A stretch of 64,000 bases of DNA from Frankineae bacterium MT45 (lineage in GTDB: Bacteria; Actinomycetota; Actinomycetes; Mycobacteriales; Jatrophihabitantaceae), in the NCBI GenBank assembly GCA_900100325.1, contig LT629697.1, positions 2,973,423 through 3,037,422 on the forward strand, written 5' to 3'. A program made the position numbers and the translations under genes. This document shows, piece by piece, positions 5,631 to 53,754 of this stretch. How positions within the stretch are numbered: position 1 is the stretch's first letter; each line of letters opens with the position of its first letter. The notes under the pieces are model-generated. The model was not told where the DNA came from. It did not search any database and saw only the letters and a list, made by a program, of their open reading frames with translations.

Positions 5631-6590
5631 CTAGCCCTTGCGCTTGCTGATCTCGTCGGTGAGGGCCGGGACGACCTCGAAGAGGTCACCGACGACACCG
5701 AAGTCAGCCAGCTCGAAGATCGGAGCCTCGTCATCCTTGTTGATGGCGACGATCGTCTTCGACGTCTGCATACCGGCGCGGTGCTGGATCGCACCCGAGA
5801 TGCCGACCGCGATGTAGAGCTGCGGCGACACGGTGACACCGGTCTGGCCGACCTGCATCGTGTGCGGGACCCAGCCGGCGTCGGTTGCGGCGCGGGAGGC
5901 ACCGACGGCGGCGCCGAGGGTGTCGGCCAGCTTCTCAAGCAGCGAGAAGTTGTCGGCGCTGCCCATGCCACGGCCACCGGAGACGATGACCGACGCGTCG
6001 GCCAGGGCCGGGCGCGAGCCCTTCTCCTCGACGACCTTGCTGGTGATCTTGGCCGACTTGGCGGCGTCAGAGATCGTCACCGCGACGGAGACGACTTCGG
6101 CGGCACCGGCGGCGGGCTCCGGCGCGACGGAGTTGGCGCGCAGCGTGATGACCGGCGTGCCGGTGCGGACCTTGGCCTGCACCGAGACAGCGCCACCGAA
6201 GATGCTCTGGGTGGTGGTCGCCGAGGCGTCGACGCCGACGGCGTCGGTGATGACACCGCCACCGATCTTGAGCGCCAGGCGGGCCGCGATCTCCTTGTTC
6301 TCAGCGGTCGAGGCGAGCAGAACCGCCGCCGGTGACGCCTGAGCGACGACCGCGGCCAGCGCCTCGGCCTTCGGAGCGACCAGGAAGCCTTCGAGCTCGT
6401 CGCTCTCGGCGACGTAGATCTTCGCCGCGCCGTACTCGCCGAGGGTGGCGGTGAGCGTAGCCGCCGAGCCCGGAGCACCGAGCACGACCGCGCTCGGCTC
6501 ACCGAGTGCGCGAGCCGCGGTGAGCGCCTCGAGAGTTGCCTTCTTTACTGAACCGTCCGCCGAATCGACGAGGACGAGTACCTCTGCCAT
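5631..6590 (-). CDS. etfA: Electron transfer flavoprotein alpha subunit
   Basis: FAD-binding large subunit of ETF, which receives electrons from acyl-CoA dehydrogenases and passes them to the ETF-quinone pathway. 319 residues: N-terminal domain [17 protein letters not shown], then the C-terminal FAD domain with [37 protein letters not shown] and [28 protein letters not shown]-type ribosome binding sequence lies upstream of the ATG. It follows etfB after 26 bases on the same strand, so they form an operon. Acyl-CoA dehydrogenase partners are encoded elsewhere in the window, for example the glutaryl-CoA dehydrogenase at 37.9 kb. Confidence 0.97.
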
Positions 6591-6616: not shown

Positions 6617-7396
6617 TCAGACAAGCTTCTTCGACGACAGGTAGTCGGCGATCTTCGCGGCGCCGTCACCCTCGTCCTTTACGACCTGACCGGCCGCGCG
6701 CGGCGGGGCGTTCTCGAACGACTCGACGACGGTGGTGGCGTTGGCCAGACCGACCTCGTCGGCACTGATGCCCAGGTCATCCAGGTCGAGAGACTCGATC
6801 TTCTTGCTCTTGGCGGCCATGATGCCCTTGAAGGACGGGTAGCGCGGGTCGTTGATCTTCTCGACGACGCTGATGACGGCCGGCGTCGAGCCCTCGACGG
6901 TCTCGTAGCCGGTGTCGGTGACGCGCTCGATGGTGACGGTCGAGCCGTCGACGGTGACCTTGCGGGCCAGCGACAGCTGCGGGACGCCGAGCACCTCGGC
7001 GACGAGAGCCGGGACGATGGCGGCGCGCGAGTCGGTGGCCTCGGAGCCGGCTATCGCGACATCCCACTCGACGGTGCCCAGTGCCTTAGCGATGACCTTG
7101 GCCGTCTGAATCGCGCAGGAACCGTGCAGCGCCTCGTCGCTGACGTGGATCGCCTTATCGGCGCCCATCGACAGGGCCTTACGGATCGACTCGGTGGCCT
7201 GCTCCGGGCCGACGGTGAGGATGGTGACCTCTCCGTCGTGCTCCTCCTTCAGGCGCAGACCCTCTTCGATCGCGAACTCGTCGATGTAGTTGATTACGGA
7301 GTCGACCGACTCGCGGTCAACGGTGTTGTCGACAGAGCTGAGCTCGCGCTCAGCCTCGGTGTCGGGCACCTGCTTGACCAGGACCACGATGTTCAT
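6617..7396 (-). CDS. etfB: Electron transfer flavoprotein beta subunit
   Basis: Small ETF subunit that binds AMP and docks with acyl-CoA dehydrogenases. 259 residues, opening with MNIVVLVKQVPDTEAERELS and carrying the family segment ATESIRKALSMGADKAIHV, the docking region YETVEGSTPAVISVVEKINDPRYPSFKGIMAAKSK, and the usual C-terminal arm. GAGAGG sits upstream of the ATG. It is the first gene of etfBA. About 100 bases upstream lies a predicted promoter overlapped by a palindrome shared with ccr and a tandem HADH gene (see 7496-7524), which suggests co-regulation with acyl-CoA metabolism. Confidence 0.97.
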   Translation of the reverse strand: MNIVVLVKQVPDTEAERELSSVDNTVDRESVDSVINYIDEFAIEEGLRLKEEHDGEVTILTVGPEQATESIRKALSMGADKAIHVSDEALHGSCAIQTAKVIAKALGTVEWDVAIAGSEATDSRAAIVPALVAEVLGVPQLSLARKVTVDGSTVTIERVTDTGYETVEGSTPAVISVVEKINDPRYPSFKGIMAAKSKKIESLDLDDLGISADEVGLANATTVVESFENAPPRAAGQVVKDEGDGAAKIADYLSSKKLV

Positions 7397-7495
7397 AGGT
7401 TCGGTGACCTCTCAGCTTGAGAAACGTTGGTGTGAATGACGCGAAGCAGCAATGCATTGGTAAATGCGAATTAACACAATGCCCCATAGTTGACC

Positions 7496-7524
7496 ATGTT
7501 ACTCGTCGGTAGCAATATGATCAT
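7496..7524 (-). promoter_or_regulatory. Predicted etfB promoter with GTTAC-type operator
   Basis: On the minus strand, ATGATC (-35-like, 7519-7524) is followed after exactly 17 bases by TAACAT (-10-like, 7496-7501). The 16-base near-palindrome GTTACTCGTCGGTAGC (plus strand, 7498-7513) overlaps the -10 hexamer. The same layout is found at ccr (44001-44029) and, with a weaker -35, at the tandem HADH gene (49998-50015). It probably drives etfBA; the divergent SMP-30-like gene starts 97 bases on the other side. The repressor role is inferred from position. Confidence 0.6.
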
Positions 7525-7609
7525 CGTCTCGTGGAGGCCATAGTCTCATTGCGGCCCGAGAATCTTGCCATCGGGTGCCTGCCCCTCAGCCGCCCGTTCA
7601 GGAGACGAC

Positions 7610-8617
7610 ATGGCCAAGCCACCGCTGGACGCCAAGACGTGGAAGCCACCGACCGCACCGCCACGCGCCCGCGAGCAGATGAGCGCCACCCCGGTCTCCC
7701 TCAACGTTATCGCCGTCCCCGGCCGGGGCCCCGAAGACGTCGTCATCGACGGCACCGGGCGGGGCATCGTCGGCCTAGGTGACGGGCGAATCCTGCGCAT
7801 CGACCCCGGCGGGGCGCCGATCGAACAGATCGCCGACACCCAGGGGCGCCCGCTGGGTATCGAGCTTGCCCCCTCCGGCGAACTGGTCATCTGTGACGCA
7901 CGTCTGGGCGTACTCAACGTCACCGCCGGCACCAGCAACACGGCAAGGCGGGTCAGCAGCATCGTCAGCCAGTTCGCCGGCCGCCCCCTGCACTTCTGCA
8001 ACAACTCGGCCATCGGCGCCGACGGGGCCATCTACTTCACCGACAGCTCCCAGAAGTTCGGTATCGACAACTGGCGGGGCGAGGTGCTCGCCCACACCGG
8101 CACAGGTCGCCTCTACCGGCGCTCGACCGACGGCACGATCGACCTGCTCGTGGACGGCCTCGAGTTCGCCAACGGGGTGGCCCTCGCCCCGGACGAATCC
8201 TTTGTGGCGGTCGCTGAGACCAGCGCCTACCGCATCCGCAAGCTGTGGCTGACCGGTCCCCGGGAGGGTCTGCTCGACCCGCTGGTGGAGAACCTGCCCG
8301 GCTTTCCGGATAACCTCAGCCTTGGCAGCGACGGACTCATCTGGGTCGCGCTCCCGACGGCGCGAGACCGCACTCTGGACGCCCTGCTGCCGCGGAGCCC
8401 GCTGCTGCGCAAGGCGGTCTGGGCGCTGCCCGAATCACTGCAGCCCAAGGCCAAACCCACCGTCTGGGTGCAGGCCTACGACCTGCACGGCAACCTGGTT
8501 CACGATCTGCAGACCTCCCACCCCGACCTGCACATGGTCACAGGGGTGCGCGAGGTGAACGGCACCGTCTGGCTCAGCAGCCTGGTCGCCTCGGCCGTCG
8601 GGGTCATCACCCTCTAA
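7610..8617 (+). CDS. SMP-30/gluconolactonase/strictosidine synthase-like beta-propeller protein
   Basis: 335 residues. The fold is predicted to be a six-bladed beta-propeller of the SMP-30/LRE and strictosidine synthase-like group; members are lactonases or related hydrolases, and the substrate cannot be told. Supporting segments are GPEDVVIDGTGRGIVGLGDGRILRID, RPLGIELAPSGELVICDA, FCNNSAIGADGAIYFTDSS, EFANGVALAPDESFVAVAETSAYRIRKLWL, and GFPDNLSLGSDGLIWVALP, each resembling a blade. The ATG at 7610 is preferred because AGGAG lies 5 bases upstream; an earlier in-frame start would add 15 residues. No signal peptide is seen. It lies divergent to etfBA and may share the regulatory region. Confidence 0.8.
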   Translation: MAKPPLDAKTWKPPTAPPRAREQMSATPVSLNVIAVPGRGPEDVVIDGTGRGIVGLGDGRILRIDPGGAPIEQIADTQGRPLGIELAPSGELVICDARLGVLNVTAGTSNTARRVSSIVSQFAGRPLHFCNNSAIGADGAIYFTDSSQKFGIDNWRGEVLAHTGTGRLYRRSTDGTIDLLVDGLEFANGVALAPDESFVAVAETSAYRIRKLWLTGPREGLLDPLVENLPGFPDNLSLGSDGLIWVALPTARDRTLDALLPRSPLLRKAVWALPESLQPKAKPTVWVQAYDLHGNLVHDLQTSHPDLHMVTGVREVNGTVWLSSLVASAVGVITL

Positions 8618-42189: not shown

Positions 42190-43374
42190 CTACGCCGGGA
42201 CGTGCAGCAGCAGAGCGTCGCCCTGACCGCCACCGCCGCAGAGCGCGACAGCACCCAGGCCGCCACCACGACGCTTCAATTCGTAGGCGATCGTAAGGGC
42301 CAGCCGAGCGCCGGACATGCCGATCGGGTGTCCGAGAGCGATGGCGCCGCCATTGACGTTGACGATCTCGTCGGTGACGCCGAGGTCCTTCATCGACTGC
42401 AGGCCGACCGCCGCGAACGCCTCGTTGATCTCGATGAGGTCGACGTCGCCGATGACCTTTCCTTCCTTGCGGAGGGCATCGTTGATCGCGTTGGACGGCT
42501 GCGACTGCAGCGAACCGTCCGGACCGGCGACATTGCCGTGGGCACCGATCTCAGCGATCCAGGTGAGCCCGAGCTCCTCGGCCTTGGCCTTGCTCATGAC
42601 GACGACGGCGGCGGCGCCGTCGGAGATCTGCGAGGCGGTGCCGGCGGTGATGGTGCCGTTGCGGTCGAAGGCCGGACGCAGCTTGGAGAGCGAGGCCACC
42701 GTGGTGTCGGCCCGGATGCCCTCGTCCTCGCGGAACTCGATCGGGTCACCCTTGCGCTGCGGGATGAAGACCGGGGTGATCTCGTCGTCGAAGCGGCCGT
42801 TCTTCACGGCGTCGGCCGCGCGCTGGTGCGACTTGGCGGCGAACTCGTCCTGCTCCTCCCGGCCGATTCCGAGCTTGGTGTTGACCTTGTCGGTCGCCTC
42901 GCCCATCGGGATGTTGTCGAAGATGTCGGTGAGTCCGTCGAAGGCCATCGCGTCGAGCATCTCGATCGCGCCGTACTTGTACCCCGAGCGCGACTTCGGC
43001 AGCAGGTGCGGTGCGTTGGTCATCGACTCCTGGCCGCCGGCCACGATGATGTCGAATTCACCCGAACGGATCAGCTGATCGGCGAGCGCGATCGCGTCCA
43101 GCCCGGAGAGACACACCTTGTTGATCGACAGGGCCGGGACGTTCAGCGGGATGCCGGCCTTGTGCGCGGCCTGACGAGCCGGGATCTGCCCCGCGCCGGC
43201 CTGCAGCACCTGACCCATGATGACGTACTGAACCTGGTCCGGGGTGATCCCGGCCCGCTCGACGGCGGCCTTGATGGCGACGGCGCCCAGATCAGCCCCC
43301 GAGAAGTCCTTCAGCGAGCCGAGAAGCCGGCCCATTGGCGTCCGTGCGCCGTTGACGATTACCGATCCAGCCAC
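42190..43374 (-). CDS. Acetyl-CoA acetyltransferase (thiolase)
   Basis: 394 residues. Thiolase active site: nucleophile Cys in [16 protein letters not shown], His in [16 protein letters not shown], second Cys in [28 protein letters not shown] is typical of biosynthetic thiolases. It condenses two acetyl-CoA to acetoacetyl-CoA or runs in reverse. The GTG at 43374 is preferred over the in-frame ATG at 43386 because GGAGG lies between them. It is divergent from the epimerase gene; a thiolase beside the epimerase also occurs in mycobacteria (fadA4) and Streptomyces. Entry step of the ethylmalonyl-CoA pathway. Confidence 0.94.
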
Positions 43375-43530
43375 AACTACCTCCATGCGGGGTTATTCAA
43401 AATGAGTTCTGGTGCCAGAAATATGCTGCCCAGAAATTGGCGATTTCCGCTCGACGTGCTCACTGTAGCCAGGCAAACCCGTTTCGAGAATGTGAACAAG
43501 GGCACGCTGACCTATCTCAAAACGCTTACA

Positions 43531-43982: not shown

Positions 43983-44000
43983 CGTCACACCACCCATTCT

Positions 44001-44029
44001 TGATCATTCGGTTACCGATCGGTAACATT
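44001..44029 (+). promoter_or_regulatory. Predicted ccr promoter with a perfect palindromic operator
   Basis: TTGATC (44001-44006), 17-base spacer, TAACAT (44024-44029). The perfect 16-base palindrome GTTACCGATCGGTAAC (44012-44027) fills the spacer end and overlaps four bases of the -10. The same design occurs at etfB and at the tandem HADH gene. Binding there would block RNA polymerase, so a repressor is likely. Confidence 0.7.
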
Positions 44030-44072: not shown

Positions 44073-45401
44073 GTGCAAGAGATTCGTAACGCCATCCTCT
44101 CCGACAACCTCGCCGAACTGGCGACGATCCCGGTACCGGAGACGTACCAGGCGATGGTCGTCCTCGCTGAGGAGGAGGGTATGTTCGCCGGCCTTGAGTC
44201 GAGCGACAAGGACCCGCGCAAGAGCCTGCACCTGCAGGAGGTTCCCACCCCGGAGCTCGGTCCGGGCGAGGCGCTCATCGCCGTCATGGCCAGCGCCATC
44301 AACTACAACACCGTCTGGACCTCGATCTTCGAGCCGGTCTCGACCTTCGGCTTCCTGAAGCGCTACGGCGCCTCCTCTGAGCTCGCCAAGAAGCACGACC
44401 GGCCGTACCACGCCGTCGGATCCGACCTCGCCGGTGTCGTGCTCCGGGTCGGTCCCGGCGTCACGAAGTGGAAGGTCGGCGACGAGGTCGTCGCCCACTG
44501 CCTCTCCGTCGAGCTCGAGGACCCGCAGGGTCACGACGACACGATGATGGACCCGCAGCAGCGCATCTGGGGCTTCGAGACCAACTTCGGCGGACTGGCC
44601 GAACTGGCACTGGTCAAGTCCAACCAGCTGATGCCCAAGCCCGATCACCTCACCTGGGAAGAGGCCGCCTCGCCGGGCCTGGTCAACTCGACCGCCTACC
44701 GCCAGCTCGTCTCCCAGCATGGCGCGGGAATGAAGCAGGGCGACGTCGTCCTCATCTGGGGCGCATCGGGTGGCCTCGGCGGCTACGCGACGCAGTTCGC
44801 GCTCAACGGCGGCGCCATCCCGGTCTGCGTGGTCAGCTCGCCGGAGAAGGCGGAGATCTGCCGGGCCATGGGGGCCGAGCACATCATTGACCGCAGCGTC
44901 GAGAAGTGGGAGTTCTGGAAGGACGGCAAGCAGCAGCCGTCCGAGTGGAAGCGTCTCGGCAAGAAGATCCGCGAACTCACCGGTGGCGAAGACCCCGACA
45001 TCGTCTTCGAGCACCCGGGTCGTGAGACCTTCGGCGCCAGCGTCTATGTCACCAAGCGCGGCGGCACCATCGTCACCTGCGCCTCCACCACCGGCTACTG
45101 GCACGAGTACGACAACCGCTACCTCTGGATGACCCTCAAGCGGATCGTCGGATCGCACTTCGCGAACTACCGCGAGTCCTGGGAGGCGAACCGCCTGATC
45201 GCCAAGGGCGCCATCCACCCGACGCTCTCCAAGGTCTACCCGCTGTCTGAGACCGGTCAGGCCGCCTACGACGTGCACAAGAACCTGCACCAGGGCAAGG
45301 TCGGCGTGCTCTGCCTGGCACCGGAGGAGGGCCTCGGCGTGCGCGACGAGAAGCTTCGGGCCAAGCACCTCGACGCGATCAACCGGTTCCGCAACCGCTG
45401 A
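44073..45401 (+). CDS. ccr: Crotonyl-CoA carboxylase/reductase
   Basis: NADPH-dependent reductive carboxylation of crotonyl-CoA to (2S)-ethylmalonyl-CoA, the key step of the ethylmalonyl-CoA pathway. 442 residues, MDR fold: SAINYNTVWTSIFEPVSTFGFL, HAVGSDLAGVVLRVGPGV, nucleotide-binding VLIWGASGGLGGYATQFAL. The residues that hold CO2 in characterised enzymes are present: Asn79 (INYNT), Phe168-Glu169 (WGFET) and His362 (GSHFAN). GTG start with GGAGG 7 bases upstream. Preceded by a promoter overlapped by a perfect palindrome and followed by a hairpin terminator, so it is a single, regulated unit. Confidence 0.97.
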   Translation: MQEIRNAILSDNLAELATIPVPETYQAMVVLAEEEGMFAGLESSDKDPRKSLHLQEVPTPELGPGEALIAVMASAINYNTVWTSIFEPVSTFGFLKRYGASSELAKKHDRPYHAVGSDLAGVVLRVGPGVTKWKVGDEVVAHCLSVELEDPQGHDDTMMDPQQRIWGFETNFGGLAELALVKSNQLMPKPDHLTWEEAASPGLVNSTAYRQLVSQHGAGMKQGDVVLIWGASGGLGGYATQFALNGGAIPVCVVSSPEKAEICRAMGAEHIIDRSVEKWEFWKDGKQQPSEWKRLGKKIRELTGGEDPDIVFEHPGRETFGASVYVTKRGGTIVTCASTTGYWHEYDNRYLWMTLKRIVGSHFANYRESWEANRLIAKGAIHPTLSKVYPLSETGQAAYDVHKNLHQGKVGVLCLAPEEGLGVRDEKLRAKHLDAINRFRNR

Positions 45402-48175: not shown

Positions 48176-49951
48176 TTAGCTGTAGTCGCGGAAGCCCTTG
48201 CCGGTCTTGCGTCCGAGACGACCGGCCGTGACCAGGTGCTCCAGCAGCGGCGCCGGCGCGTAACCCGGCTCGCGGAACTCGTTGTACAGGGTGCGCTGGA
48301 TGGCCAGCGACACGTCGTTGCCGACCACGTCGAGGAGCTGGAACGGGCCCATCGGGTAACCACAGCCGACCTTCATCGCGGTGTCGATGTCATCGGCGCT
48401 GGCGTAGTGCGCCTCAAGCATCTTCACCGCGTCGTTGAGGTACGGGAAGAGCAGCGCGTTGACGATGAAGCCGGCCCGGTCACCACAGCGCACCGCGTGC
48501 TTGCCGATCTTGGCCGTGACGTCGAGGACGGTGGCCTCGACCGCGCTGTCGGTCGAGACGGTGGTGACGACCTCGACCAGGCGCATGATGGCGGCCGGGT
48601 TGAAGAAGTGCATGCCGATCACGTCGGCCGGACGCGAGGTGACCGCGGCGACCTCGATGACCGGGAGGCTTGAGGTGGTGGTGGCCAGGATGGTTCCCGG
48701 CTGGCAGACCCGGTCCAGGGTGGTGAAGAGTTCCTGCTTGACGGCGAGGTCTTCGACGACGGCCTCGACGACGAGTTCGACTCCGCTCAGATCTTCAGCG
48801 CTGCTGGTGCCCCGGACGAGGGCCAGAGCGGCGTCCCGCTTCTCCTCCGTGAGCTTGCCGCGATCGACGGCCTTGTCGAGCGACTTGGTGATGCTGGCGA
48901 TGACGCCGGCCACCTTCTGCTCGCTGCGGGCGACGAAGAGGACCTCGTAGCCGGCCTTCGCGAAGACCTCGATGATGCCGGTGGCCATCGTGCCGGAACC
49001 GACCACACCGACCTTGCTGATGCTGCGAGCTCCGGCGACGGCACCGCCGGCGGACGGGGTGAGCGCATCGGCGACGACGGTCGACGAGCCGGGCGCCTCG
49101 TAGGTGTAGAAGCCGCGGCCGGACTTACGTCCGAGCAGGCCGGCGGTGATCATCTGCTTGAAGATCGGCGTCGGCGCGTAGAGGCGATCGCGCGTCTGCT
49201 TGTAGATGGTGTCGAGGATCTCGGCGGCGGTGTCGAGGCCGATGAGGTCGAGCACGGCCAGCGGTCCCATGGGGAGTCCGCAGCCCAGGCGCATCGCGGC
49301 GTCGATGTCCTCGCGGCTGGCGTAGCGCGACTCGTACATCGCGGCCGCGTGGTTGAGGTATCCGAAGAGCAGGGCGTTCGCGATGAATCCAGCCCGGTCG
49401 CCGATGGTGACGTCGGTCTTCTCCAGCGACTGGGCGAAGGCCTCCACGTCCTCGACGACGTCGGCCTCGGTGACGACGCTGCGCACGATCTCGACCAGCT
49501 TCATGACCGGAGCCGGGTTGAAGAAGTGCAGACCGACGACCTTCCCCGGGCGGCCGGTGGCGACGGCGATCTCGGTGACCGAGAGGGACGAGGTGTTGGT
49601 GGCGAGGATCGCCTCCGGCTTACAGATCTCGTCCAGCGTCGCGAAGATCGACTTCTTCAGCTCCAGCGACTCCGGCACGGCCTCGATGACGAGGTCGGCC
49701 TCGCCGAGGGCCTTCAGCTCGGTGCCATAGGTGATGTTGCCCAGCAGCGTCATGCGCTCGTCGGCCGTTAGCTTGCCGCGGGCCACGGCCCGGTCGGTGG
49801 ACTGCTCGATGTGGGCCTGTCCGGCCTCGATCGCCGCGTCGTCCTGCTCGATGGCCAGCACCGAGATGCCGTTGCGGGCCAGCACCTCAGCGATCCCGGC
49901 ACCCATCGTGCCGAGACCGACAACGCCAACCTGAGAAAATTCGCGGCTCAT
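48176..49951 (-). CDS. Tandem-fused 3-hydroxyacyl-CoA (3-hydroxybutyryl-CoA) dehydrogenase
   Basis: 591 residues made of two complete 3HAD units in one chain. Unit 1 (about 1-290) has the NAD motif VGVVGLGTMGAGIAE, LVIEAVPESLELK, the catalytic His142 in GLHFFNPAPVMKLVE and GDRAGFIANALL. Unit 2 (about 312-591) has VGVVGSGTMATGIIE, ELVVEAVVEDLAVK, GMHFFNPAAIMRLVE and GDRAGFIVNALL. Both look catalytically complete. The enzyme oxidises 3-hydroxyacyl-CoA or reduces acetoacetyl-CoA. Similar double proteins exist in Streptomyces. Upstream lies a GTTAC-type operator shared with ccr and etfB. AAGGAAC precedes the ATG. Confidence 0.93.
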   Translation of the reverse strand: MSREFSQVGVVGLGTMGAGIAEVLARNGISVLAIEQDDAAIEAGQAHIEQSTDRAVARGKLTADERMTLLGNITYGTELKALGEADLVIEAVPESLELKKSIFATLDEICKPEAILATNTSSLSVTEIAVATGRPGKVVGLHFFNPAPVMKLVEIVRSVVTEADVVEDVEAFAQSLEKTDVTIGDRAGFIANALLFGYLNHAAAMYESRYASREDIDAAMRLGCGLPMGPLAVLDLIGLDTAAEILDTIYKQTRDRLYAPTPIFKQMITAGLLGRKSGRGFYTYEAPGSSTVVADALTPSAGGAVAGARSISKVGVVGSGTMATGIIEVFAKAGYEVLFVARSEQKVAGVIASITKSLDKAVDRGKLTEEKRDAALALVRGTSSAEDLSGVELVVEAVVEDLAVKQELFTTLDRVCQPGTILATTTSSLPVIEVAAVTSRPADVIGMHFFNPAAIMRLVEVVTTVSTDSAVEATVLDVTAKIGKHAVRCGDRAGFIVNALLFPYLNDAVKMLEAHYASADDIDTAMKVGCGYPMGPFQLLDVVGNDVSLAIQRTLYNEFREPGYAPAPLLEHLVTAGRLGRKTGKGFRDYS

Positions 49952-49997: not shown

Positions 49998-50015
49998 AGG
50001 TTACTGACGGGTAAC
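49998..50015 (-). promoter_or_regulatory. Operator and -10 element of the tandem HADH gene
   Basis: GTTACTGACGGGTAAC (50000-50015) matches the ccr palindrome in both 5-base arms. On the minus strand the arm runs into TAACCT (49998-50003), the same -10 register as at ccr and etfB (TAACAT). The -35 (GAAACC at 17 bases) is poor. It lies 49 bases before the HADH start codon. Confidence 0.6.
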
Positions 50016-51729: not shown

Positions 51730-53754
51730 CTACGCCGACTCATGTGCGGCCCGAGCCTCGACTATCGCGTCGACCACCGAGTCGAGCACGTTGGTGATGG
51801 CGAAGTCCTTGGGCGTGAAGACCCGAGCCACTCCGGCCGCGAGCAGCGCCGGGGTGTCGGCCTCCGGGATGATCCCGCCGAGCACCACCGGCACGTCATC
51901 GAGACCGGCTGCGCGCAGGCCGTTGACGACATCCGGCACCACCGACAGGTGCGAACCCGAGAGGACCGAGAGGCCGACCACGTCGACGTCCTCCTCCACC
52001 GCCGCCGCGACGATCTGGGACGGGGTGAGGCGGATGCCCGAGTAGACGACCTCGAACCCGGCGTCACGGGCGCGGACGGCGATCTGCTCGGCCCCGTTGG
52101 AGTGCCCGTCGAGGCCCGGCTTGCCGACCAGGAACTTCAGCGGGCGGCCCAACTCCTGCCCGACCTGGCGCACCCGGTCACGCACGGACTGCAGATCCGA
52201 GGCGTTGCCGCCGCCACTGGCCGCGCTCACCCCGGTGGGGGCGCGGTACTCGCCGAAGACCTCCCGCAGCACGCCGGACCACTCGCCGACGGTGACCCCG
52301 GCCCGGGCACAGACCAGCGAGGCCTCCATCAGGTTCGTCTCGGTCTTGGCCGCGTCGCGCAGCGCGCGCAGCGCCTCGTCCACGACCTCGGCGTCACGAG
52401 CGGCTCGCCAGGCGGCGATGGCCTCCTTGGCCGCACCCTCGACGGCCGCGTCGACGGTGAGAATGCCACCGTCAGCCCCACCGACCAGCGGGTTCGGCTC
52501 GGATTCGGTCCACTTGTTCAGCCCGACGATGATGTCCTCGCCCGACTCCATCCGGCGCCGGCGATCGGCCAGCGACGAGACGAGGGCCGATTTCATGTAG
52601 CCGGACTCGACGGCCGCGACCGCACCGCCCATCTCCAGCACGCGGGCCACCTCGGCCCGGGCCCCGTCGGCGATCTCGGCCACCTTCGCCTCGACGACCG
52701 TGGAGCCGGCGAAGAGGTCGCCGTACTCGAGGAGGTCGGATTCGTAGGCCAGCACCTGCTGCATCCGGATCGACCACTGCTGGTCCCAGGCCCGGGGCAG
52801 GCCCAACGCCTCGTTCCACGCCGGCAACTGGACGGCCCGGGCGCGGGCGTCACGCGACATCGTGACGGCCAGCATCTCCAGGAGAATGCGGTACACGTTG
52901 TTCTCCGGCTGCGCCTCGGTGAGGCCGAGCGAGTTCACCTGGACGCCGTAACGGAATCGCCGCTGCTTGGCGTCGGTGACCCCGTACCGCTCGCGGGTGA
53001 TCTCATCCCAGAGCTGGCCGAAGGCGCGCAGCTTGCACATCTCCTCGACGAAACGCACCCCGGCGTTGACGAAGAAGGAGATGCGGGCCACGACGTCGGC
53101 AAACTTCTCCGGCGGCACCTGACCCGAGTCGCGCACCGAGTCGAGGACGGCGATCGCGGTACAGAGGGCGAAGGCAACCTCCTGCACCGGCGTCGCGCCG
53201 GCCTCCTGCAGGTGATAGCTGCAGACGTTCATCGGGTTCCACTTGGGCACGTTCGCCACTGTGTAGGCGATCATGTCGGTGATCAGGCGCAGCGAAGGAG
53301 CCGGCGGGAAGACGTACGTTCCCCGCGACAGGTACTCCTTGATGATGTCGTTCTGGGTGGTGCCGGCCAGCTTGCTGCGGACCTCAGCCGGGTCCAGCCC
53401 GCTGGCCACCGCCTGCTCCTCGGCCGCGGTGAGGTAGAGCGCGAGCATGTACATCGCCGGCGCGTTGATCGTCATCGACGTGTTCATCTTCTCGAGCGGG
53501 ATATCCGCAAAGAGCGCCCGGATGTCACCGATGTGCGAGATGGGCACCCCGACCTTGCCGACCTCGCCGCGGGCCAGTTCTGCGTCCGGGTCGTAGCCGG
53601 TCTGGGTGGGCAGATCGAAGGCGACCGAGAGACCGGTCTGCCCCTTGGCCAGGTTGCGGCGGTAGAGCGCATTGGACTCGACCGGCGACGAATGTCCGGC
53701 GTAGGTGCGCATCACCCACGCGGGATCGCGGGTGTGATCATCTGGGTAGGGCAT
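51730..53754 (-). CDS. meaA: Ethylmalonyl-CoA mutase (MeaA/Ecm), with fused B12-binding domain
   Basis: Adenosylcobalamin-dependent conversion of (2R)-ethylmalonyl-CoA to methylsuccinyl-CoA. 674 residues from the ATG at 53754 (GAGG upstream). The catalytic part (WVMRTYAGHSSPVESNALYRRNLAKGQTGLSVAFDLPTQTGYDPDAELARGEVGKVGVPI, YLSRGTYVFPPAPSLRLITDMIAYTV) keeps Tyr and Arg at the two carboxylate-binding positions, unlike IcmA. The C-terminal domain carries the B12 motif DGHSNGAEQ (D-x-H-x-x-G). MNTSMTINAPAMYMLALY and CSYHLQEAGATPVQEVAF match MeaA rather than methylmalonyl-CoA mutase. Same strand and just upstream of nucS. Confidence 0.93.
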   Translation of the reverse strand: MPYPDDHTRDPAWVMRTYAGHSSPVESNALYRRNLAKGQTGLSVAFDLPTQTGYDPDAELARGEVGKVGVPISHIGDIRALFADIPLEKMNTSMTINAPAMYMLALYLTAAEEQAVASGLDPAEVRSKLAGTTQNDIIKEYLSRGTYVFPPAPSLRLITDMIAYTVANVPKWNPMNVCSYHLQEAGATPVQEVAFALCTAIAVLDSVRDSGQVPPEKFADVVARISFFVNAGVRFVEEMCKLRAFGQLWDEITRERYGVTDAKQRRFRYGVQVNSLGLTEAQPENNVYRILLEMLAVTMSRDARARAVQLPAWNEALGLPRAWDQQWSIRMQQVLAYESDLLEYGDLFAGSTVVEAKVAEIADGARAEVARVLEMGGAVAAVESGYMKSALVSSLADRRRRMESGEDIIVGLNKWTESEPNPLVGGADGGILTVDAAVEGAAKEAIAAWRAARDAEVVDEALRALRDAAKTETNLMEASLVCARAGVTVGEWSGVLREVFGEYRAPTGVSAASGGGNASDLQSVRDRVRQVGQELGRPLKFLVGKPGLDGHSNGAEQIAVRARDAGFEVVYSGIRLTPSQIVAAAVEEDVDVVGLSVLSGSHLSVVPDVVNGLRAAGLDDVPVVLGGIIPEADTPALLAAGVARVFTPKDFAITNVLDSVVDAIVEARAAHESA

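Follow-up and report, generated by a model that had tools for sequence, protein, structure and literature searches.

The window analysed here, the whole stretch of 64 000 nucleotides from Frankineae bacterium MT45, sits in a single contig of 4.23 Mb. Two genes on its minus strand, etfB (6617–7396; 259 aa) and etfA (5631–6590; 319 aa), encode the beta and alpha subunits of an electron transfer flavoprotein (ETF); the best NCBIfam matches of both are ETF models, with scores below the curated cut-offs of those models. The gene ccr (44073–45401, plus strand) encodes a crotonyl-CoA carboxylase/reductase of 442 aa, identified with TIGR01751 (601.6 bits against a cut-off of 378.55), and is adjoined by an acetyl-CoA acetyltransferase gene (42190–43386, minus strand). 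The sequence ATGATCATATTGCTACCGACGAGTAACAT (ATGATC-N17-TAACAT) is found ahead of etfB at 7496–7524 on the minus strand and TTGATCATTCGGTTACCGATCGGTAACAT (TTGATC-N17-TAACAT) ahead of ccr at 44000–44028 on the plus strand. Both 29-mers had been reported as promoters in the first-pass annotation and were confirmed in sequence and position. The pattern WTGATC-N17-TAACAT has just these two matches in the window, and 100 shuffles gave an average of 0.00.

Each of these promoters contains a 16 bp operator. The etfBA operator GCTACCGACGAGTAAC (7498–7513, minus strand) has a TAC-N6-GTA core with GCTAC as its left arm and GTAAC as its right arm, and lies 101 bp before the ATG of etfB. The ccr operator GTTACCGATCGGTAAC (44011–44026, plus strand) is a perfect palindrome 46 bp before the GTG start codon. 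A third operator, GTTACTGACGGGTAAC (50000–50015), precedes the gene for a double-domain 3-hydroxyacyl-CoA dehydrogenase of 576 aa (48176–49906, minus strand), which lies 93 bp downstream. When the window was scored with a matrix built only from the fadE5 and etfD operators of other genera, the etfB, ccr and third sites reached 21.6, 24.7 and 24.9, respectively; the next-best match in the window scored 8.6, and the top score of the same matrix in 15 first-order Markov windows was 12.7.

The intergenic region that carries the etfB operator is common to a divergent SMP-30/strictosidine-synthase-like gene (7610–8617, plus strand), which is a possible second target of this operator. By eye, a TTGACC-N17-CAATAT sequence at 7490–7518 on the plus strand lies over the etfB operator and faces the SMP-30-like gene, though it was not reported by a sigma-70 scan. 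A single operator may serve two divergent promoters here. Further along the window, a methylmalonyl-CoA-mutase-family enzyme of 660 aa is encoded at 51730–53712 (minus strand) and is possibly an ethylmalonyl-CoA mutase. No operator of its own was found at this gene in the window; the same-family mutase gene of a relative (L341) has one.

Genes preceded by the operator

In what follows this genome is G000, other G numbers are genomes of a set of 61 relatives, and L numbers are loci. The pattern GNTACYSRNSRGTAAC has exact matches at six places in this genome and single-mismatch ones at another 28, and gave 46 rows of matches against 16 for the reversed pattern. Five of the six exact places precede acyl-CoA, ETF or ethylmalonyl-CoA (EMC) pathway genes. 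Three are those in the window, before etfB, ccr and the double 3-hydroxyacyl-CoA dehydrogenase gene at 48176–49906. One lies before a fadE5-type acyl-CoA dehydrogenase gene (L007; operator score 25.7), the product of which matched the FadE5 group of PDB entries over its full length (best 816.3 bits). Another lies before genes for a thiolase and a short-chain dehydrogenase (SDR) of the PRK08261 model, designated fadA2 and fabG4 here, which are divergent from a tetR gene (L008). The sixth exact place precedes an abhydrolase gene (L009).

Places with one mismatch were found before an AMP-binding fadD (L011), tesB (L025), the 3-hydroxyacyl-CoA dehydrogenase gene hbd (L030), two acyl-CoA dehydrogenase genes (L023 and L033), a short-chain dehydrogenase gene (L028) and a secretory lipase gene (L032). 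A further one precedes the gene for an Fe-S protein (L012), taken for EtfD-like from its CCG and Fer4 domains. Others precede genes for a VWA protein, a DUF6801 protein, an S15 peptidase, an esterase and family-less proteins, for which a tie to acyl-CoA is unclear, and ten of the 28 lie within predicted genes and are probably due to chance. Many of the operator-marked genes belong to acyl-CoA metabolism. A palindrome, GCTACTCGCGAGTAGC, was also seen at L021:2496–2511 (G000:C1:1039895), 167 bp upstream of an MqnA-type menaquinone biosynthesis gene and within a weakly scoring ORF.

Conservation was examined at etfB, ccr, etfD and fadE5, taking the best 30 loci among matches in 59, 39, 60 and 59 genomes, respectively. 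Four loci with too little upstream sequence were left out before counting, namely L155 (etfD), L184 and L186 (fadE5) and L096 (tetR). An operator was called at a score of at least 12 within 400 bp upstream, and this genome and its sister were included. On this basis, an operator was found upstream of etfB at 26 of 30 loci, ccr at 24 of 30, etfD at 21 of 29 and fadE5 at 26 of 28. Downstream controls gave 0/30, 1/30, 0/29 and 0/30 for the four genes in the same order, and coding controls 0, 0, 1 and 1 of 30. Among further etfB loci, eight of 11 had the operator. It was found at 78 of 80 named etfB loci, the best 80 of 585, with none downstream (0/80) or in coding sequence (0/80). The matrix behind the 30-locus and 80-locus counts had ten sites of this genome as its training set, and rows from the genus of this genome match by construction. 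The named loci include Nonomuraea, Micromonospora, Actinomadura, Lentzea, Nocardiopsis, Streptosporangium, Blastococcus and Kutzneria, and at least two of them (L192 and L193) appear to duplicate genomes of the relatives set. The etfB loci where no operator was called were those of G005, G007, G012 (score 10.5, under the threshold), G031, G024, G040 and G052. The strict pattern GYTACYSRYSRGTAAC was present in 52 of the 61 genomes and absent from nine; the reversed strict pattern gave eight matches in four of the 61.

A further 20 operator places in the relatives were picked by hand, of which 18, all except L339 and L344, had their genes scanned. Nine of the 18 precede clear acyl-CoA genes, encoding three thiolases, two AMP-binding ligases, an AidB-type acyl-CoA dehydrogenase, an SDR, the methylmalonyl-CoA-mutase-type enzyme of L341 and a double 3-hydroxyacyl-CoA dehydrogenase (L340) that belongs to another family than this genome. 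The other nine have no clear tie and precede genes for two aldehyde dehydrogenases, two epimerase-type enzymes, a polyketide-cyclase/lipid-transport protein, a DUF4442 protein, a PorA-type porin, a carbohydrate kinase and one family-less protein. At ten loci of family f7, likely the mycobacterial one, the genes were two acyl-CoA dehydrogenase-like and one citrate synthase-like (by eye), one isocitrate lyase and six without a clear tie. Two operator-like f7 sites, L369 and L370 (G029 and G054), lie before an ORF judged by eye to be citrate-synthase-like from its N-terminal part and a gene identified with Pfam as isocitrate lyase. It was also seen by eye that fadE5 often has two close operator-like copies joined by a short AT-rich stretch (L160–L167, L174, L176 and L185).

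The first-pass annotation had tied etfBA to the ccr promoter. That connection gave way to a wider one, since both genes probably belong to a beta-oxidation regulon together with fadE5 and etfD.

The operator as a predicted −10 element

At both etfB and ccr, the right arm of the operator gives the first four bases of TAACAT. The predicted −10 of etfB occupies 7496–7501 (minus strand) and overlaps the right arm, and the candidate −35, ATGATC at 7519–7524 (minus strand), is weak and genus-limited. As the −10 TAACAT and the arm GTAAC overlap by four bases, the likeness of the two promoters and the likeness of the two operators are not independent. Counting sites of its own genus, TANNNT is found at the operator in 25 of 26 etfB and 24 of 24 ccr sites, but in only seven of 26 fadE5 and six of 21 etfD sites, which makes the use of the operator as a −10 a conserved feature of the first two genes. 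TANNNT is likewise present in 74 of the 78 named etfB operators, and exact TAACAT in 64, these sites having been chosen with the first matrix, which was trained on sites of this genome. A T as sixth base would be uncommon were the bases after the arm free. The doubling of the operator as a −10 at etfB and ccr is real and conserved.

The −35 behaves differently. WTGATC in this position is confined to this genome and its sister species (two of 26 etfB sites and two of 24 ccr sites), and at least 28 of the 78 named etfB loci have TTTGC plus one base in the −35 register. The suggestion that etfBA and ccr share a promoter architecture therefore holds for the right arm and the −10, where the shared feature is conserved, and fails for the −35, where the resemblance is limited to the genus. 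A generic sigma-70 scan of 7380–7640 found no promoter, and a common −35/−10 promoter was rejected as the main cause of the etfB–ccr likeness.

It is very improbable that the two genes share nothing more than a housekeeping promoter (TAACAT with a weak −35) to which the palindrome is incidental. TAACAT, a usable actinobacterial −10, is indeed common to both promoters, but the palindrome is kept where mostly no −10 follows (TANNNT at 13 of 47 fadE5 and etfD sites), frequently occurs twice at fadE5 and is found again ahead of acyl-CoA genes at nine of the 18 hand-picked loci. The empty sigma-70 scan of the etfB region also speaks against a promoter of this kind.

The mismatch in one arm of the etfB operator (GCTAC versus GTAAC), correctly recorded in the first-pass annotation, proved to be a conserved feature rather than decay. 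The second base of this arm is C in 71 of the 78 named etfB sites, while sites of other genera at the other genes are mostly GTTAC (20 of 24 at fadE5 and 17 of 19 at etfD). From this conserved mismatch it is reasonable to infer that the etfB operator is a tuned, weaker site.

Candidate regulators

A TetR protein of G029 was presumed to be FdmR, on a gene order like that of Mycobacterium tuberculosis (htdX-, fabG4-, fadA2- and fadE5-like neighbours). In G029 there are two operator copies at fadE5 and a weaker one in the gap between fabG4 and fadA2. Proteins resembling this one (FdmR-like) were detected in 14 of the 61 genomes at E≤1e-25, several of them congeners, and their genes were scored with a matrix free of sites from the genus of G000. 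An operator was found upstream of nine of the 14 genes at a score of at least 11 and of eight at a score of at least 12, with 0/14 both downstream and in coding sequence. By family, the FdmR-like genes with an operator were three of three in f12, two of two in f4, two of three in f15, two of three in f14 and none of three in f7 (G029 included). The operator at nine of the 14 genes suggests a tie to FdmR in four families, and in f7 such a tie would come from fadE5. FdmR likely reads the operator in several families, judging from this association. A TetR structure from Rhodococcus sp. RHA1 (PDB 3f1b) gave a match of 1.8e-71 with the FdmR-like protein of G029, and a solved structure of an FdmR-type regulator thus seems to exist.

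FdmR (Rv0238) is described as a TetR-family repressor that acts on fatty-acid degradation and responds to long-chain acyl-CoA (PMC12403877), and fadE5 is described as being under its control (PMC9262360). The operator upstream of fadE5 is in keeping with the FdmR regulon of Mycobacterium marinum and M. tuberculosis, which has fadE5 as a target. Unlike that regulon, the one found here includes ccr. A search of this genome and of its 23 family members yielded no FdmR at E≤1e-25, and a more diverged orthologue is possible there. FdmR as the regulator in this genome is unsupported at this threshold. One TetR gene of this genome (L407:12810–13424) was considered as an FdmR orthologue and set aside, with 34 of 146 positions identical by BLAST and no operator beside the gene. 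Its product has a TetR_C_46 domain and PDB 2qib as its best PDB match, and the gene lies approximately 4 kb from the fadA2/tetR operator.

The operator between tetR and the divergent fadA2–fabG4 in this genome is GTTACTCGGGGGTAAC, and GTTACTGGGGGGTAAC is found before tetR of G001. By a five-seed TetR profile, tetR (G000:C1:404913) is the one TetR gene immediately adjacent to an operator in the loci fetched from this genome. It encodes a FasR-like protein of 297 aa, which matched FasR over residues 49–243 (phmmer, 2.9e-17). The five best Foldseek matches of its predicted fold (mean pLDDT 76.0) are all FasR, with TMt of 0.66–0.76, and its score against the FasR model NF053731 was 87.9 bits, below the cut-off of 330. 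Its recognition helix differs from that of FdmR. Among homologues of this protein, the operator was found in the promoter of only two of 29, both in its own genus, and its Pfam domain, PF19344, went undetected (E≤1e-8) in genomes that carry the operator, among them G017, G022 and G034. It was therefore rejected as an order-wide regulator. Within this genus, the divergent FasR-like TetR is the best candidate from its sequence and position, and the case for and against it is roughly balanced. Rv0158 and MftR were dismissed as relatives of the operator, as their published motifs differ.

FasR (Rv3208) is described as a TetR-family sensor of long-chain acyl-CoA (PMC7382501), and a TAC...GTA palindrome with 6 bp between the arms has been predicted upstream of mycobacterial fatty-acid genes including Rv2524c (PMC3388012). 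The TAC-N6-GTA core found here equals that predicted palindrome, and we infer that the motif predicted in 2012 is that of FasR. The difference is that FasR activates synthesis genes, whereas the sites described here mark degradation genes.

The operators of etfB and ccr are placed between the −35 and the −10 and overlap the latter (over TANNNT in 74 of the 78 named etfB sites), so that binding should block polymerase. This position argues against reading of the site by a TetR-type activator, as by FasR at fas-acpS or CcrR at an EMC gene, which we consider unlikely. Such an activator would fit the likeness of this genome's TetR to FasR, and CcrR of Methylobacterium extorquens is reportedly a TetR-family activator of an ethylmalonyl-CoA pathway gene; CcrR is comparable as a TetR-family regulator tied to such a gene, but differs in being a named activator and in coming from another phylum. 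FasR is also described as activating, and as binding three inverted repeats (PMC7382501). FdmR (PMC12403877) and FadR of Bacillus (PMC4525379) are, on the other hand, both described as repressors.

Acyl-CoA degradation, electron transfer and assimilation

Among the 61 genomes, ccr was found in 39 (E≤1e-100) and isocitrate lyase in 15 (E≤1e-40). Only one genome (G037) had both, and eight had neither at these thresholds, four of which are less than 90 % complete. Across the set the two genes are nearly exclusive. In G000, ccr is present and isocitrate lyase was not found at E≤1e-40. In the 38 genomes with ccr but without isocitrate lyase, acetyl-CoA from beta-oxidation is thus likely put to net use through the EMC pathway. 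An operator was found upstream of three of the 15 isocitrate lyase genes, all in family f7, and isocitrate lyase was rejected as a general member of the regulon. In Streptomyces tsukubaensis, growth on acetate is described as requiring the EMC operon, and ccr1 under its native promoter as being below quantification in glucose/dextrin medium (PMC4606968). This behaviour fits the regulation proposed here for ccr but does not prove it.

Membership of ccr and of the mutase gene of L341, together with the overlap of ccr and isocitrate lyase in just one of the 61 genomes, could also be accounted for by a regulator that answers a C4 or EMC intermediate (crotonyl-, butyryl- or ethylmalonyl-CoA) in place of long-chain acyl-CoA. 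We regard this as quite improbable, given that, of the four genes examined, etfB and fadE5 carry the operator most regularly, that fadE5, fadD and the lipase gene suit longer chains, and that sites are kept where ccr was not found, for example in G029, G042 and G054.

The explanation we favour, and consider probable, is that the element at etfBA and ccr is the operator–promoter unit of a beta-oxidation regulon under an acyl-CoA-responsive TetR regulator, a regulon that includes ETF and, in lineages without isocitrate lyase, ccr. Sensing of acyl-CoA by the regulator is suggested by homology to FdmR and FasR. A dimer of a TetR-family repressor would bind TAC-N6-GTA, and at etfBA and ccr the bound site would fill the spacer and part of the −10, blocking RNA polymerase. 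A build-up of acyl-CoA, from fatty acids or possibly from acetate via C4 acyl-CoAs, would release the repressor. Release would lead to joint expression of fadE5 and other acyl-CoA dehydrogenase genes, fadA2–fabG4 and the 3-hydroxyacyl-CoA dehydrogenase genes; the electron outlet, EtfBA and EtfD, would be expressed in the same response, as would ccr of the ethylmalonyl-CoA pathway in lineages without isocitrate lyase. The repressor would probably be FdmR in several families; for this genus, the divergent FasR-like TetR is a possible repressor.

Two precedents for such a regulon are known already, namely ETF genes under an acyl-CoA-responsive TetR repressor (FadR of Bacillus) and the FdmR regulon of mycobacteria. 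FadR of Bacillus subtilis is described as a TetR repressor that is inhibited by C14–C20 acyl-CoA and controls lcfA-fadR-fadB-etfB-etfA and other fad operons (PMC4525379). The logic there is the same, with ETF grouped with beta-oxidation, and it is by this regulon logic that the two are likened; Bacillus belongs to another phylum and its etfBA lies inside a fad operon, whereas etfBA here has its own operator–promoter. No paper on the etfB/ccr operator was found in a search made mostly outside the subscription literature.

It is possible, though doubtful, that the operator and the beta-oxidation/ETF regulon have been kept across an actinobacterial order, and probably beyond it, while the protein that reads the operator has been exchanged, being FdmR in several families, in this genus a FasR-like TetR, and another protein elsewhere. 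The assimilation arm would have been exchanged too, with ccr and the EMC pathway in many lineages and isocitrate lyase in f7, and the locking of one operator arm to the −10 at etfB and ccr would have kept the recognition sequence fixed. The apparent exchange of the reader under a fixed operator, if true, would offer a clear-cut example for work on regulator turnover. The exact 16 bp site also provides a target for finding the regulator and for steering the supply of the precursors ethylmalonyl-CoA and methylmalonyl-CoA.

ETF is the exit for the electrons of many acyl-CoA dehydrogenases, and EtfD returns these electrons to the respiratory chain. In M. tuberculosis, EtfD is described as a membrane oxidoreductase that works with EtfBA in beta-oxidation (PMC8593149). 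From the presence of one operator at etfBA, the etfD-like gene, fadE5 and ccr, joint switching of fatty-acid burning, of the outlet for its electrons and of carbon assimilation is predicted for many actinobacteria. The cell thus probably turns on the burning of fat, the outlet for the electrons and one use of the acetyl-CoA together.
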